Assembly (NCBI GenBank): GCA_944324375.1
Contig: CALUWB010000009.1
Span: 1-44,207 of the forward strand
DNA: 44,207 nt
From: Candidatus Gastranaerophilales bacterium
Lineage (GTDB): Bacteria > Cyanobacteriota > Vampirovibrionia > Gastranaerophilales > Gastranaerophilaceae
Direction of reading: 5' to 3'
Below, piece after piece: positions 32,019-38,682 of the stretch. The position numbers were made by a program, and so were the translations under genes. How positions within the stretch are numbered: the stretch's first letter is position 1; each line of letters starts with the position of its first letter. Below the pieces are notes generated by a model that saw nothing but the letters and a program-made list of their open reading frames with translations, did no database searches and had not been told where the DNA came from.

Positions 32019-32051
32019 TAAAAAATACTATGTAATATAATAAAAATATGC

Positions 32052-32057
32052 TATTAT
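32052..32057 (+). promoter_or_regulatory. Extended -10 before the 32076 cassette
   Basis: TGC-TATTAT (TG at 32049-32050) would start RNA near 32064, leaving a ~12-nt leader with no ribosome-binding site. A second short leader-type start therefore opens the cassette. Confidence 0.35.
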
Positions 32058-32075: not shown

Positions 32076-32570
32076 ATGATAAAAGATAAAATATCAGAAC
32101 GAGTAAAATTAAATAAAAGATATTTAAATAACGAGGATTTATTAGATTCTTTTGTAGATTTAACTTATGAAAAAATAAGTAGTGTTGTAGATTCGATTAA
32201 TGATGAAGAAATACTTATTAATTACATTGATAAAATTGCATCTAAATCAATAATAGAGGTATTGCAAGCTAATAACCGTTATAGATGTAATAATTTATCT
32301 AATAGGAATAAGATTGATTATAGTATTTTTAATTATAAATTAGAAAATTTTAACCCTACCAAATATTCAATATCAAAGTTGGCTAAATTATTTTCTACTT
32401 TAAAAAAAATAGATGAAAATAATAATAGCTCTTTTCTTGATGTTATAATGTTAAGGTATAAAGATAATAATAAAATCTGTAACATTGCAAAAGCAATGGA
32501 GTTATCAGAAGAAGAAGTTGCAAATATTTTGTTTGATATGGCAGATTATGCAAGTAAGGTTAGCAAATGA
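32076..32570 (+). CDS. Probable HTH protein, sigma-70-like
   Basis: 164 residues. The C-terminal FLDVIMLRYKDNNKICNIAKAMELSEEEVANILFDMADYA resembles sigma-70 region 4 helix-turn-helix (…LRY…IA…lgiSe..V…). The N-terminal DLLDSFVDLTYEKISSVVDSI..EEILINYIDKIA could be a divergent region 2-like helix pair, but I cannot prove it. It may be an alternative sigma factor or an anti-/adapter protein. The stop overlaps the next gene as ATGA. Regulation of the cassette by this protein is an inference from order alone. Confidence 0.55.
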   Translation: MIKDKISERVKLNKRYLNNEDLLDSFVDLTYEKISSVVDSINDEEILINYIDKIASKSIIEVLQANNRYRCNNLSNRNKIDYSIFNYKLENFNPTKYSISKLAKLFSTLKKIDENNNSSFLDVIMLRYKDNNKICNIAKAMELSEEEVANILFDMADYASKVSK

Positions 32571-35542
32571 TGAAATGTCCAAAGTGTAATTCTGAATTAG
32601 AAGAAAATACAATAAGATGCCCAATATGTGGTACTCGTATAGGTAGACTTTGTCCTAGTTGTAACTCATATAACCTTGTTACAAGCAAAATTTGTTCAAA
32701 TTGTGGCGAACAGCTTTTGCAAATATGTCCAAATTGTAAGGCAATAAATTTACCATCATCAAAATTATGTAGAAAATGTGGATTTGAGTTGTCTAAAAAA
32801 GAAGTAATAGATGATGTTGAAAATAATGAAGAAAATCCAATTTCACAAGAAGAAACATTGCAATATAAAGCTAATTATCATACCTTATCATCAGCTCAAG
32901 AGGCTATTATGTCATCAATTCAAGCTGAAAATATTAAAATTATATCAATTAATGGTGATAATGAATTAGGTAAGGGGTATGTTTTTAAAAGTTTGATGAA
33001 ACAAACTGCAGATGCAGGTATTGCTTGGGTTTATGGAACTTGTACTCCTCATACTCAATTAACTCCGTTAGGTTTTTTCCAAAGTCTATTATTAAATTTA
33101 TTTAATGTAACAAATTTTTGTTCTAGTAAAAAACAATTAAAACGTGAATCAATAAAGTTTTTTAAGCAAGACTTTCAAAATTTAACAGTTAATGAAATAT
33201 ATGATTTATTAAATATTTTATATCCTGAAAATATAGATCAGTTTCAAAATATCTTTAATAATAAACAAAATACAATAAAAGTTATTGTAAAAATATTCGA
33301 GACAATATTGTCTAAAATGAATACTGTTTTAGTTGTTGAAAATATTGAATATATTGATAGTTTTTCATATGAACTATTAAATATATTAATTTCAAATGAA
33401 TTTATAAGAGAGAAGTTAACACTCTTATTGAGTTTTTCAAAAGAGCAATCTGGAATAAATTGTATTTCGTCTCCGTATTTAACTGATAATAATTATGTTG
33501 ATGTTACAATCTTGCCATTTTCAAATGAACAAATAGAGCCTATTTTCGAAAATTATAAGAATTTAAATTTATCAGATGATACGAAATCAAAAATTATGCA
33601 TTTTGGTGATGGTAATTCAATATTAGTAGAGCAGTTAATTAATTTAGTTTCTGATGCTACAAAAGCTAATGTAGAATTTAATCTATCCAGTGATATAAAA
33701 GCTGTGTTAAAGGCAAGGCTAGAAATACTTAAAAAAACTGATAGTTATACATATTTGATATTATGTGCATCTGCAATTATTGGATTTAAATTTAATCCTG
33801 CTTTATTTAATTCAATATTTAACATGAGTTATGAACAAATTGAAGCAAGAATAAATAAATTAGTAAAATTAAATTATGTAATTCCTTCAATTAATTTGGG
33901 TTATCAATTCAAGACATTGAATTATTGGAATGTGCTAATAGAATTATTAAAAGAAGATAAAGAAGTATTTAGTGATGTGAATAAGGCATTGTATCCATTA
34001 TTGTGTGTTTATACATTATCAACAACAGCGATATTAGGATTTATCTGCCAGAATATGGATTTATCAGATCAAACATTTGCGATATGGACAAAGTGTACGC
34101 AATATGCTGCTTATATAGGTGATACAGGTTTATATATAATATTACAAAAACAAATATTAAATATAATTGATAATGTCAATTTAGCTCAAAAAGACTTAGT
34201 GAAAAGAACCATTTATGCTGAGCTTGGGAAATTATTAGAACCTGATAACCCTAATTTAGCAATGGAATACTTGCCTAAGGCAATAATGATGTTGAATGAT
34301 TCTGACTTTATAGAAAAAATAGAATTGTTAGGATATTTAGCATCTTGTTCAATGAAGTTGCAAAATTATCACGGAGTATTGGAATGTATTAATAATGTAA
34401 TACCACTTATTCCAGATAATTTTCCTGTTGAAGTTGCAATGTTAAAATCTCGAGAAATAGTTCCTCTTGAAAAAATAGGCAATACTGGTGCAATAATTAA
34501 CATTGTAGATAATGATGTATTGCCAGTTTTAGAAAAAGTTTTAGATAATAAATTAGTTTGTAAAACGATTTCTTTAGATGATATCTTTGAGACTTGGTTG
34601 AAAACAAATTTGAACTTAGCTAAAAGTCTTGTATTACAAGGTGATAGTAGAGCATTTAAGGTTATTGATTTGATATTAAATGCTTACAAAGCTAATCAAA
34701 TAGAAAATGAAAGTTTTTTAGTGCGAGTAAATACAATATTAGCTTTTGCACATACAATGGTCGGTAATATACGCACTTCGATAACAATTCTTGATGAAAT
34801 ATTGTCTGGTGATAATAAAAATATTGAACCAGATGTTTTGTCAAATATTAATTTAATAGGAATATTAAATAGATTTTTTATGAATAAAGATGATTTATCT
34901 TATGAAGAATTATTCCAAGCAGCTCAGTATGCTGATAATATTGGAGATGATTTCATTAAGAATATTCTAAAATTAATATTAGGTCGTTTGATGCAAGATA
35001 GAACTTCAGCCAAAGAGGCTGCAGGAATATATGCTACACAAATTGAATATTTTGCAGATAAGCAAAATGCTATTGGTGTTTTATTAGGTTGGTATTTCAT
35101 ATCAAAAGCAAAATTAATTATAGATGGACCTGAAAGTGCATTAGATATTGCATTGAAGGCATTAGATATTGCTGATAGCGCCAATATATCAAATTATTAT
35201 TTCTCATTATTATTAGATAAGTTGATAAGTGAAATATATTTAGCTTTACAAGATTACGAATCCGTTAAAATCTATTTAGAAAAAGCAATGATAATAGCTA
35301 AGAATTTTAATATAAAATATCAATTAGTAGAGTTATACATATTCTATTCAAAATATTTGCAAGAATTGGCTTTAGCTTCTTCTGATAAAAAAGCTGAATA
35401 TGTTTTAACAGCTAAGCAAATGAATAACAAAGCTAGAGATATTTCTGATGAATTAAAATTAATATATTTAACATCGGCAGTAGAAAAAGCCGATACAATA
35501 TTAAATTCGTTCTGTCAAATGAACGGTATCGCATTAAAGTAA
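32567..35542 (+). CDS. Triple zinc-ribbon, degenerate STAND-like ATPase, helical-repeat protein
   Basis: 991 residues. Residues 4-71 hold three C-x2-C-x10-C-x2-C ribbons in exact 25-residue period (Cys4/7/18/21, 29/32/43/46, 54/57/68/71). A predicted AAA_16/STAND ATPase starts near 105. Its Walker A reads GDNELGKG at 130-137 (Lys kept, Ser/Thr replaced by Gly) and its Walker B VLVVENIEYID at 254-264, with Asn where an acidic residue is usual. TCTPHTQLTPLGFFQSLL matches the loop seen in cyclase-linked STAND ATPases. The second half (about 550-985) looks like a TPR/helical-repeat array. In many relatives a cyclase domain precedes the ATPase; none is present. The gene overlaps its upstream neighbour by 4 bp. 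Cytoplasmic. Confidence 0.75.
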   Translation: MMKCPKCNSELEENTIRCPICGTRIGRLCPSCNSYNLVTSKICSNCGEQLLQICPNCKAINLPSSKLCRKCGFELSKKEVIDDVENNEENPISQEETLQYKANYHTLSSAQEAIMSSIQAENIKIISINGDNELGKGYVFKSLMKQTADAGIAWVYGTCTPHTQLTPLGFFQSLLLNLFNVTNFCSSKKQLKRESIKFFKQDFQNLTVNEIYDLLNILYPENIDQFQNIFNNKQNTIKVIVKIFETILSKMNTVLVVENIEYIDSFSYELLNILISNEFIREKLTLLLSFSKEQSGINCISSPYLTDNNYVDVTILPFSNEQIEPIFENYKNLNLSDDTKSKIMHFGDGNSILVEQLINLVSDATKANVEFNLSSDIKAVLKARLEILKKTDSYTYLILCASAIIGFKFNPALFNSIFNMSYEQIEARINKLVKLNYVIPSINLGYQFKTLNYWNVLIELLKEDKEVFSDVNKALYPLLCVYTLSTTAILGFICQNMDLSDQTFAIWTKCTQYAAYIGDTGLYIILQKQILNIIDNVNLAQKDLVKRTIYAELGKLLEPDNPNLAMEYLPKAIMMLNDSDFIEKIELLGYLASCSMKLQNYHGVLECINNVIPLIPDNFPVEVAMLKSREIVPLEKIGNTGAIINIVDNDVLPVLEKVLDNKLVCKTISLDDIFETWLKTNLNLAKSLVLQGDSRAFKVIDLILNAYKANQIENESFLVRVNTILAFAHTMVGNIRTSITILDEILSGDNKNIEPDVLSNINLIGILNRFFMNKDDLSYEELFQAAQYADNIGDDFIKNILKLILGRLMQDRTSAKEAAGIYATQIEYFADKQNAIGVLLGWYFISKAKLIIDGPESALDIALKALDIADSANISNYYFSLLLDKLISEIYLALQDYESVKIYLEKAMIIAKNFNIKYQLVELYIFYSKYLQELALASSDKKAEYVLTAKQMNNKARDISDELKLIYLTSAVEKADTILNSFCQMNGIALK

Positions 35543-35558
35543 ATTAAAGGAATTTAAA

Positions 35559-37541
35559 ATGAATCATAATAAGATTATTTTATTACTAGCATTAATATTA
35601 TTGCTTCCAGCGACGGCCGATGCTAAAATGACAAAAGAAGCTCATAATTTATATAAGACAGCTTCAATGTATGAGAATAAACAAGATTATCAAAATGCTA
35701 TAAAATATTTAGAAAAAGCTGTCTTAGTAAATGGTGATGATTCAGTTTTATATACCAAGTTAGCAGGATTGTATTCTAATATAGGGGATAATTCAAAGGC
35801 TTTATCTTATTATAAAAAAGCATTGAAATTAAATCCAGCAGACGGTTTTTTATATGTTAGTATTGGTAATATTTTACAGTCATTGGGAGATTATGAAAAT
35901 GCTTACAATTCATATAAAGAAGCCCAAAAATTATGCCCTGAGTATAAATATAATTATTTAAATATTGCAAGTGTTGAAGCATATCAGAAGAAATATAATG
36001 AATCAATCAATGATTATCAAAAGTTTTTACAATCATATCCTGATAATCAATTAGCCAGAGAAAGTATTGCAAGGACTTATTTAGAATCCGGAGATATTGA
36101 CAATTCAATAAAAGAGTTTAAACAGGCATATGATAGTTCTCCTGAATCGTTTAAAGATTATCTAAATTATGGAACTGCGTTGTTTAAGTCTAATGATTAT
36201 GATAATGCGATAAAAATTTTAAATAAATCATTAGTGAGTTCACCTGATAGTGTAAAAGCATATTCACAACTAGCTTTATCATATCAAGCATTAGACAAAA
36301 ATCAGGATGCAGAAAAGGCTTTCAATAAAACATTTGAATTAGAACCAAATCTTTATGATTTAAGATTTGATTATGGAAATTTACTTGCTTCAATGGATAA
36401 AAATGAAGAAGCAATAGTTCAATATAAGAAATTTTTAGAAGCATATCCGGATAATGTTGATGCAAATAAAAATTTAGCATTGATGTATAAAAAGCAGAAT
36501 AATATAGATTTAGCAATATTAAATTATGAGAAGGCATATAGTAAAGCTCCAAATGATTCAGATATTCAAAAAGAATTGGCATTTTGTTATCATAAGAAAG
36601 AAGATTACAAAAAAGCTCTAAAATTTTATGATTTAGCTCTAAAAGATGCTCCAAATGATTATGATTTAAGGTATAATAAAGCACTCGCACTTCAAGCTGA
36701 TAAATCATATCTTTCTGCGATAGAAATATATAAAACATTATTATATGAGAAAGAAAATGATGAAGTTCAAAATCATTTAAATTCAGCATTGTTATCATTA
36801 GGTTATGATTTAATTGATAAAGGTCAGTATTTACAAGCTGGCTTAGCATTTGAGGAAGTTTTATCAAATGATGATAGGCTAGCATCTGCATATTTTGGTT
36901 TAGCATTATCAAATAGAAACTTAAATAATGATAAAAAAGCAAGTTATTATTTTGAAAAAGCAATAGAAATAGACAAAGATAATGCTGAGTATAAAAATGA
37001 ATTTGAATCATATAAAGCCTCTTTAGATAAACAATTAAAGGTTAATAATCAAGAAGAGAATTTGTCTGAGGTTGAAAAGTTAATTTTACAAGGAGATTCA
37101 GCATACAAGTCAAAAGATTATAAACAAGCTGCGTCTTGTTATTCAAAAGTTATGGTAATTACTCCAAATGACAAAGAGACTTTATTGAAATTAGGTAATA
37201 TAAATAGAATTACCAAAAATTTATCAAAAGCTACTTATTACTATAATGAAGCAATAAAAATAGATAATGATTTTGCTGATGCTTGGTTTAATTTAGGATT
37301 AACATATGCAAATCAGCGTAATTTTAATAGTTCTATAAATTGTTTTGAGAAGGTTATTTCTCTTGATTCTAATTATGCTTTAGCTTATTATGCATTGGGG
37401 CTTGCTTATGAGTTGAAAAATGATAATGAAAAGGCTATTGAAAATTATATAAAATATACAACATATGAAAAAGATAAAAAATTAGTAGAAACAGTTAATA
37501 ATAAAATACAGCAACTACAACAAGCTCAACAATTACCATGA
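35559..37541 (+). CDS. Secreted TPR-repeat protein
   Basis: 660 residues: signal peptide at 1-23 (NHNKIILLL... ending ATADA), then about 15-17 tetratricopeptide repeats filling the rest (A.xYxxxGDNSKAL.YYKKALKLNPADG and similar). A gap near residue 490-510 (NNQEENLSEVEK) separates two arrays. Repeats keep the W/L-G-Y-A-F-A-P pattern, so they should form a superhelical scaffold in the periplasm. The stop overlaps the lipoprotein gene by 4 bp (ATGA), and the start lies 16 bp after the ATPase gene behind AAAGGAA. The four genes from 32076 to 37945 form one unit. Confidence 0.85.
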   Translation: MNHNKIILLLALILLLPATADAKMTKEAHNLYKTASMYENKQDYQNAIKYLEKAVLVNGDDSVLYTKLAGLYSNIGDNSKALSYYKKALKLNPADGFLYVSIGNILQSLGDYENAYNSYKEAQKLCPEYKYNYLNIASVEAYQKKYNESINDYQKFLQSYPDNQLARESIARTYLESGDIDNSIKEFKQAYDSSPESFKDYLNYGTALFKSNDYDNAIKILNKSLVSSPDSVKAYSQLALSYQALDKNQDAEKAFNKTFELEPNLYDLRFDYGNLLASMDKNEEAIVQYKKFLEAYPDNVDANKNLALMYKKQNNIDLAILNYEKAYSKAPNDSDIQKELAFCYHKKEDYKKALKFYDLALKDAPNDYDLRYNKALALQADKSYLSAIEIYKTLLYEKENDEVQNHLNSALLSLGYDLIDKGQYLQAGLAFEEVLSNDDRLASAYFGLALSNRNLNNDKKASYYFEKAIEIDKDNAEYKNEFESYKASLDKQLKVNNQEENLSEVEKLILQGDSAYKSKDYKQAASCYSKVMVITPNDKETLLKLGNINRITKNLSKATYYYNEAIKIDNDFADAWFNLGLTYANQRNFNSSINCFEKVISLDSNYALAYYALGLAYELKNDNEKAIENYIKYTTYEKDKKLVETVNNKIQQLQQAQQLP

Positions 37542-37945
37542 AAAAAAGTTTTTTAATTATATTTGTTTTATTAATATTTTTATTGTCCGGATGTTCTGAA
37601 AAAGAGCATGCAAATATTTTATTCAATTCTGAGCCAATAACTTATGAAACTATAATGTATCCGAAAAAAGATTTTGCAGAAGGGCAGCGTATTTATTATC
37701 TATTTTTTACTCCTAAAAAATTGAATAGTGAATTTATACGTGTTCAAGTTTTTAAAGTATCTGATACTATTAATAGAGGAGGATATACTATATATTGGAC
37801 TAATGATTATAGGGTAATGAAACAAAATATTTATTATTACTATAATAATTTCACTATTCACCAAAAAGGACGATATGTTATGCAGATATTTTCTATTGAT
37901 AATTTAGGAAAACCTCTTGCTTATAATGAGTTTTTTATAAGATAA
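37538..37945 (+). CDS. Small lipoprotein
   Basis: 135 residues with a lipobox: hydrophobic signal, then LLSGC with Cys19 as lipid-anchored residue, so it is probably membrane-anchored in the envelope. The mature part is beta-rich and aromatic (IYYLFF.P...., YYYYNNF, MQIFSIDNLGKPLAYNEFFI), with no family I know. It overlaps the TPR gene by 4 bp, so the two are likely partners. The 3' end overlaps the convergent orphan by 25 bp. A role in tethering the TPR protein is inferred. Confidence 0.7.
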   Translation: MKKSFLIIFVLLIFLLSGCSEKEHANILFNSEPITYETIMYPKKDFAEGQRIYYLFFTPKKLNSEFIRVQVFKVSDTINRGGYTIYWTNDYRVMKQNIYYYYNNFTIHQKGRYVMQIFSIDNLGKPLAYNEFFIR

Positions 37946-38682
37946 TTACCATAGTCAAAATCTTGTGTTAGATTAGATTTTGTAAGATTTTCTATATTAT
38001 ATATAATGTTTTCAGTTGATGTTTTACTGTAAATTATTTTAATTACATCTATTGGATAATCTTTTGATGTAAGAGTTTCAATTTTGTATTTTATTTTAGG
38101 TAATAATTTAATTTTATCTGCATTTGCATTTTCATTAACTAAAATTTTTACAGCATTAATAAAATTTTTTGATTTTGTTAAATCATTCGAATTGTTTAAT
38201 GTAGATAACACATATTTAATTAATGGTATTGTTGCTTTAAATTGTTTTTTTAAGTTTGTATTAGAGATTGGGCCAGCAGCAAATGTTGAAAGATAATATT
38301 TAGATGTTAAAGTATCTGCTTGATTTAGTACTTCCCAAGTAAAATCTAATGCTTCTTGGTTATAGAAAGATGCATCTTTGAATTGGCTAAGCAATATATT
38401 TAAAGGGACTTCTAAATCAACCCCACTTAATTGTGTTAGTGAGACTTTAATTATTTTAATTAAGAGTTCTAGATATTTAGGATTAGTTTTTTTTAGTTCA
38501 GTTATATTTAATTTAACTGCAGGTAATAAAATTGCAAATCGGAGTAATTCACCCCTTAAGATAGAATTTCTAATTTCTGAATTAAGCTTAGTGTTATTAT
38601 TTTTAATAGGAGAAGTAACGTTTGATTTACTTCCCTTTATTGGATTTTGAATAGAATTCAATTGTTTTTTTAATTCTTCCAT
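37921..38682 (-). CDS. Orphan helical protein
   Basis: 253 residues without signal peptide or membrane segment. The N-terminal ~35 residues are polar and disordered-looking. From residue 38 on there are amphipathic helices rich in Leu, Ile and Lys that look like a HEAT/TPR-type solenoid by eye (e.g. YLELLIKIIKVSLTQLSG; LTKSKNFINAVKILVNE). I recognise no domain. ATG at 38682 has AGGA upstream. Two palindromes lie upstream (38701-38720 and 38733-38752) and may be its operators. It follows the glutamate synthase unit on the same strand but with a 122-bp gap. Confidence 0.65.
   Translation of the reverse strand: MEELKKQLNSIQNPIKGSKSNVTSPIKNNNTKLNSEIRNSILRGELLRFAILLPAVKLNITELKKTNPKYLELLIKIIKVSLTQLSGVDLEVPLNILLSQFKDASFYNQEALDFTWEVLNQADTLTSKYYLSTFAAGPISNTNLKKQFKATIPLIKYVLSTLNNSNDLTKSKNFINAVKILVNENANADKIKLLPKIKYKIETLTSKDYPIDVIKIIYSKTSTENIIYNIENLTKSNLTQDFDYGNYLIKNSL

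Follow-up and report, generated by a model that had tools for sequence, protein, structure and literature searches.

The window analysed here is a 44 kb contig (44,207 nucleotides, CALUWB010000009.1 of assembly GCA_944324375.1) from the 2.03 Mb genome, 97 % complete, of a Candidatus Gastranaerophilales bacterium. It contains a cassette of four genes that encode a diverged sigma factor (gene 1), a zinc-ribbon STAND protein (gene 2), a secreted tetratricopeptide repeat (TPR) protein (gene 3), and a lipoprotein (gene 4). Genes 1 and 2 belong to a largely undescribed operon of an anti-sigma-like gene, a sigma gene, and a STAND gene, and the window holds a decaying, rewired form of it. Probably, a self-regulated extracytoplasmic function (ECF) operon is found across the order and has been decaying in the window's lineage, where it was also rewired. 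The comparison set consisted of about 115 related genomes, with 116 searched for orthologues; the relatives named below are metagenome-assembled genomes (MAGs) of Candidatus Gastranaerophilales. An earlier, sequence-only reading had taken the cassette as the best candidate in the window for an undescribed system. Since the sigma arm appears to be decaying in this lineage, the window is ill suited as an example of a functioning signalling system.

Pfam alone did not give the identity of gene 1, and relatives were needed. TIGR02937 matches the window copy with E=0.0018 and 17.9 bits, which is below its cut-off of 42.9, and Sigma70_r4 matches with E=0.11. The orthologues that occupy the same position match TIGR02937 with up to 70 bits (E to 1.4e-19) over a span from sigma-2 to sigma-4. 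The family profile also matches the structure of B. subtilis SigW (5wuq, E=8.3e-4), and a core-binding-like motif, NEDL, is invariant at the sigma-2.2 position. Through orthology, gene 1 is assigned from its sequence as a diverged ECF-type sigma factor with both sigma-2 and sigma-4. The sigma-like helix-turn-helix called at the outset is therefore clear in the orthologues, which pass the profile comparison, and the window copy falls short of it. The recognition helix is SQSEVSKRL, with a net charge of 0 to +2, in most relatives. In the window it is LSEEEVANILFDM, with a net charge of -4, and it is acidic in the genus. The linker between the two domains is hypervariable (about 20 to more than 300 residues), and the protein reaches 476 residues in L048. 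Linkers with hundreds of acidic residues occur at L048:6842-8272 and L049:12251-13033, the latter as a near-perfect repeat (LNNQTIDTVDNELVE). A second sigma-like gene with a basic recognition helix is present in G035 (L051:16918-17595, minus strand, 225 amino acids), about 6 kb 5' of the first.

Orthologues of gene 2 were identified in 92 of the 116 genomes, in nearly every member of the order. The window does have the three zinc ribbons, spaced in 25-residue register, that had been read from it, and their six CxxC motifs are retained order-wide, in nearly all of 60 relatives. Pfam alone did not identify the ATPase, which was again recognized with the help of relatives. In the AlphaFold model (predicted local distance difference test, pLDDT, 80), the zinc ribbons are followed by an ASCE ATPase (about residues 107-315) and a winged helix (about 422-448), and the TPR superhelix extends to residue 985. 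Its top Foldseek match is the STAND-TPR protein 6mfv. MalT (8bob) matches residues 106-550 with Z=16.5 and MalT domain III (1hz4) matches residues 574-970 with Z=22.8. This predicted arrangement of ATPase, winged helix, and TPR region identifies gene 2 as a STAND protein of the MalT-like kind. A C-terminal LuxR-type DNA-binding domain is absent from the protein, as the chain ends in TPRs and no helix-turn-helix family matches it.

The altered Walker motifs first read from the window are also confirmed: the P-loop has Gly for Ser/Thr and the Walker B motif has Asn for the acidic residue. Most relatives have GxxGxGK[ST], and the window's clade has GKG, GKN, GKA, or GKD, with the exception of G006, a genus member that retains GKS. 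Across the family the series runs from GKS/GKT to GKN and then to GKG/A/D. Walker B reads hhhhDD in distant relatives; much of the family has hhhhDN, and the genus has VEN or CEN. Both motifs are intact in distant relatives and altered in the window, and their erosion runs along roughly one path. Many relatives are 1180-1300 residues long and carry an insert of about 200 residues between the ribbons and the ATPase. The insert gave no Pfam or PDB sequence match, and only profile-profile comparison resolved its likeness to a cyclase: in distant clades, hhalign pairs it with genuine class III cyclase domains (probability 96.3, P=1.9e-9), and it lacks the catalytic acids and the metal Asp pair. 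In nearer clades the insert has an acidic, apparently disordered sequence, and the window's clade has lost it. A catalytic cyclase was therefore rejected for the window, where the domain is absent, and for the relatives' insert, which lacks the metal Asp pair. The description of gene 2 as a signalling ATPase without its cyclase holds, with the addition that a cyclase-like domain was lost stepwise. Full-length paralogues of gene 2 (about 1180 amino acids) occur in many relatives. The window's genome has a paralogue at L002:3-1670 (minus strand, G000:C86) with zinc ribbons, the cyclase-like insert, and the ATPase, near a phage-repressor/LexA-like gene.

Gene 2 has the sigma gene immediately before it, in the same orientation, at 39 of 60 loci, in f1 and f7. 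The sigma gene is itself immediately preceded by a large gene in 41 of 52 sigma loci; this gene has about 400-1800 codons (counted from open reading frames, some of them cut by contig ends). Sampled proteins encoded there match DUF1822, zf-HC2, and TonB_C/TonB_2. A transmembrane (TM) segment is predicted in 39 of the 41 proteins, usually about 200 residues from the end. The zinc motif HxxxCxxC occurs in 14, and the zf-HC2 matches lie around the cut-off. Position, the DUF1822 domain, and topology indicate that this protein would act as an anti-sigma factor. With a one-TM DUF1822 gene directly 5' of sigma in relatives, the envelope-to-transcription signalling proposed by the sequence-only reading is plausible order-wide; this partner was out of view of that reading. 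A neighbouring anti-sigma-like gene, expected of an ECF sigma factor, is found in relatives and not in the window's genus. In G000, G001, G004, and G007 the gene has been relocated beside grpE-dnaJ and has no C-terminal domain. In the window's genome it is at L208:3006-4154 (minus strand, G000:C2), has 382 codons, and lies directly 5' of grpE-dnaJ. Complete loss from the genus, as suggested by PF08852, was overturned by a family-specific profile.

A promoter-like site also marks the operon in relatives. Upstream of the anti-sigma gene, an unbiased dyad count gave pairs of the type TTGGAAT...GTGT/ATCT in 10-13 of 37 sequences, where the expectation was 0.03-0.15. Aligned, they give GGAATA-N13-TGNNNTCT 5' of the anti-sigma/sigma/gene 2 operon; the site in G029, whose sigma is an intact orthologue, is GGAATA-N13-TGTNATCT. 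A search for the exact pattern GGAATATTTN10TGNNNTCT gave 39 matches in the genomes of the order, about one per genome; with the pattern reversed as a control, 116 genomes gave 8. Of the 39, 32 are at the operon itself, which points to autoregulation: 31 lie 5' of sigma in the same orientation or at the accompanying anti-sigma gene, and one further match (G060) is 5' of an anti-sigma gene truncated by the contig end. This distribution is what an autoregulated ECF sigma factor with a very small regulon would leave, and sigma may well recognize the site. Exact copies off the operon occur at L261:2881 (minus strand) in G076 and L262:783 (plus strand) in G089. These are probably chance matches, within or antisense to reading frames.

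The window's clade lacks this promoter. An ECF-like site was not found in the window, and the exact site is absent from all eight genomes of the genus and from G031, G035, G036, G041, G065, and G069. A degraded copy is retained by G035, the outermost of the sister genomes. The promoter and the recognition helix are associated with p=0.007, or p=0.001 when three loci with sites beyond the search range are counted; the genomes are related and neither value is independent evidence. In the region upstream of gene 1, the block TATGgTATTATTg is retained in six genus members, and a conserved TATGgTATTATT block resembles the extended -10 of a housekeeping sigma factor. The cassette probably has a housekeeping-type promoter there, in an AT-rich region where matches are no commoner than in shuffles. 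Scans of the window for consensus promoters and terminators likewise gave matches no better than shuffles, and no Rfam families were found in the window.

Genes 3 and 4 are envelope proteins, as had been proposed. Gene 3 has a signal-peptide-like N-terminus and matches TPR_2 over 14 stretches (E=2.6e-68). Gene 4 has the lipobox LSGC, with the Gly-Cys invariant among relatives; its model has a pLDDT of 79, and its top PDB match is an uncharacterised protein of Leptospira (6oe6, E=2.1e-5). It is single copy in nearly all genomes of the order (89 of 116 searched) and was not found outside the order in the 116 genomes searched. Among the 25 fetched loci in which the pair is away from gene 2, 22 have gene 3 immediately before gene 4. 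By these sequence comparisons, genes 3 and 4 are a separate order-wide pair. No high-scoring ECF-like site was found at the pair in other genera, and membership of genes 3 and 4 in a sigma regulon there was rejected for this reason. Convergent with gene 4 and overlapping its end is a gene for a 253-residue protein of unknown family (window 37921-38682, minus strand), present among the fetched loci only in genus members.

The ancestral four-gene cassette supposed at first is not borne out, because two independently conserved units appear to have been joined in the window's lineage. The full four-gene arrangement is confined to the window's genus, and genes 2, 3, and 4 are together in G041, which the gene 2 tree places as the sister of that genus (SH-aLRT 99). 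A single joining of gene 2 with genes 3 and 4 is suggested. The dispersal of the four genes in relatives, which the sequence-only reading had named as refuting evidence, is thus half observed. As the pairs are conserved independently and usually lie far apart, and a single joining event suffices, the proximity of the four genes could reflect operon rearrangement only, with an unrelated role for each pair. This is improbable, given that genes 2, 3, and 4 keep their order in both G041 and the genus although gene 2 is about 40 % identical between them and the flanks differ, and that genes 2-4 are under strong constraint. The same evidence favours gene 2 working physically with the envelope pair; the link may also be one of co-transcription alone.

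Selection differs along the cassette. The ratio of nonsynonymous to synonymous substitution rates (dN/dS), rough here because dS is near saturation, is 0.23-0.59 for gene 1, 0.09-0.16 for gene 2, 0.07-0.11 for gene 3, 0.02-0.07 for gene 4, and 0.14-0.30 for the anti-sigma homologue. The weak constraint on sigma against the strong constraint on genes 2-4 argues for decay of the sigma arm in this clade. A working four-protein envelope-to-transcription pathway, the view of the sequence-only reading, appears unlikely. In such a pathway the lipoprotein and TPR protein would sense the envelope, gene 2 would relay, and sigma would have a changed promoter preference. All eight genus genomes do retain the order sigma-gene 2-gene 3, with gene 4 wherever the contig continues, the dN/dS of sigma is below 1, and an anti-sigma-like membrane protein is present in relatives. 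However, G041 has genes 2, 3, and 4 and no sigma or anti-sigma was found in it, the sigma linker of G006 has an in-frame TAA stop (possibly an assembly error), the recognition helix is acidic, the self-promoter is absent, and genes 3 and 4 have no such site elsewhere.

In the preferred reading of an order-wide operon that is decaying here, a one-TM protein would hold the small ECF sigma factor in the ancestral state. This protein would have the DUF1822 domain in the cytoplasm and the TonB_C-like domain across the membrane, and some members carry a zinc anti-sigma motif. An envelope signal would release sigma, and RNA polymerase would then transcribe from GGAATA-N13-TGNNNTCT, which would raise the output of anti-sigma, sigma, and gene 2. 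Gene 2, MalT-like and without the DNA-binding tail, would be a cytoplasmic sensor or scaffold working with sigma. The operon would have broken up in the common ancestor of the window's genus and G041, and gene 2, with sigma in the genus, would have joined the old TPR-lipoprotein pair. Loss of the self-promoter, basic recognition helix, and ATPase motifs would have followed, and a housekeeping promoter probably drives the cassette. The most likely present role of gene 2 is that of a zinc-ribbon/TPR scaffold that does not hydrolyse ATP and is produced together with the envelope pair, as sigma drifts towards loss.

Several observations weigh against this account. In f2-f4 and f6, gene 2 does not adjoin sigma, so the partnership is not obligatory. 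The HxxxCxxC motif is found in a minority of the upstream proteins, so that an anti-sigma role is argued from gene position, the DUF1822 domain, and topology. The exact site is missing from some relatives whose sigma helix is intact. Gene 1, with dN/dS below 1, may retain some function, the near-saturated dS leaves the ratios rough, and the compared genomes are MAGs.

Table 1. Features of the four-gene cassette, in window coordinates.
Feature	Position	Strand	Description
Putative extended -10 (TG-C-TATTAT)	32049..32057	+	HI0933/sigma intergenic region; housekeeping-type promoter
Gene 1	32076..32570	+	164 amino acids; diverged ECF-type sigma-70 protein; sigma-2 ~12-72, sigma-4 ~105-160
Gene 2	32567..35542	+	991 amino acids; zinc-ribbon/degenerate STAND ATPase/winged helix/TPR, without the pseudo-cyclase domain of relatives
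Three zinc ribbons	32576..32779	+	CxxC at 4/18, 29/43, 54/68; Pfam DZR E=4.7e-12
Degenerate Walker A GDNELGKG	32954..32977	+	Gly replaces Ser/Thr
Degenerate Walker B VLVVEN	33326..33343	+	Asn replaces acidic residue
C-terminal TPR superhelix	34034..35521	+	Residues ~490-985; predicted helices; pLDDT ~90; MalT domain III match
Gene 3	35559..37541	+	660 amino acids; secreted protein; ~15 TPRs
Gene 4	37538..37945	+	135 amino acids; lipoprotein with immunoglobulin-like beta sandwich

The four open reading frames, the ATGA overlaps of genes 1/2 and 3/4, and the 16 bp between genes 2 and 3 are as the sequence-only reading gave them. Gene 2 starts at a second ATG in relatives, so its overlap with gene 1 may be 1 bp.

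The system resembles several known ones. It shares with the SigW-RsiW type of ECF sigma and zinc anti-sigma factor a two-domain sigma, an adjoining gene for a one-TM anti-sigma-like protein (with HxxxCxxC/zf-HC2 in some), a GGAA-type -35, and a conserved -10 5' of its own operon. Unlike that type, the upstream protein starts with DUF1822 and ends with a TonB_C-like domain, a STAND protein follows, and the length of the sigma linker varies widely. The window differs further by its lost promoter, relocated anti-sigma, and acidic recognition helix. Cyanobacterial neighbourhoods of an ECF sigma adjoining DUF1822, with EACC2-caspase genes, are on record (Kaur et al. 2021, PMC8195603). There the third gene has a caspase domain, whereas here it encodes the zinc-ribbon STAND/TPR protein. 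DUF1822 was described as a TPR protein (PMC8195603), and in the present proteins it is joined to zf-HC2, TM, and TonB_C-like parts. MalT-type STAND regulators share the arrangement of NTPase, winged helix, and TPR sensor with gene 2, which lacks their C-terminal DNA-binding domain, adds N-terminal zinc ribbons, has sigma as a separate gene, and has eroded ATPase motifs. Cyanobacteria also have Sigma70-NB-ARC-TPR_MalT architectures (PMC11119718). Sigma and the STAND/TPR module are in one chain there and in two genes here, with zinc ribbons and a pseudo-cyclase added; the likeness is of architecture. In the literature library searched, no paper linking Gastranaerophilales with sigma factors was found.

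A bolder proposal can be put forward tentatively, and is perhaps the less probable course. The order may possess a three-part self-amplifying ECF system made up of a DUF1822-TM-TonB_C-like anti-sigma, sigma, and the zinc-ribbon/pseudo-cyclase/STAND protein as a direct partner of sigma. In one lineage the STAND protein would have been freed from sigma control and rebuilt as the pseudo-ATPase scaffold of an envelope TPR-lipoprotein complex. Separate genes would then do what MalT does in one chain.

The order-wide operon and its near-unique self-promoter form a testable circuit, resembling an envelope-stress response, in a largely uncultured order of gut bacteria with cyanobacterial kinship. DUF1822 is placed in a putative anti-sigma role. 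The family can also serve as a natural gradient: the cyclase-like domain, ATPase motifs, promoter, and recognition helix appear to erode within a single clade, and the TPR/zinc scaffold remains under constraint.

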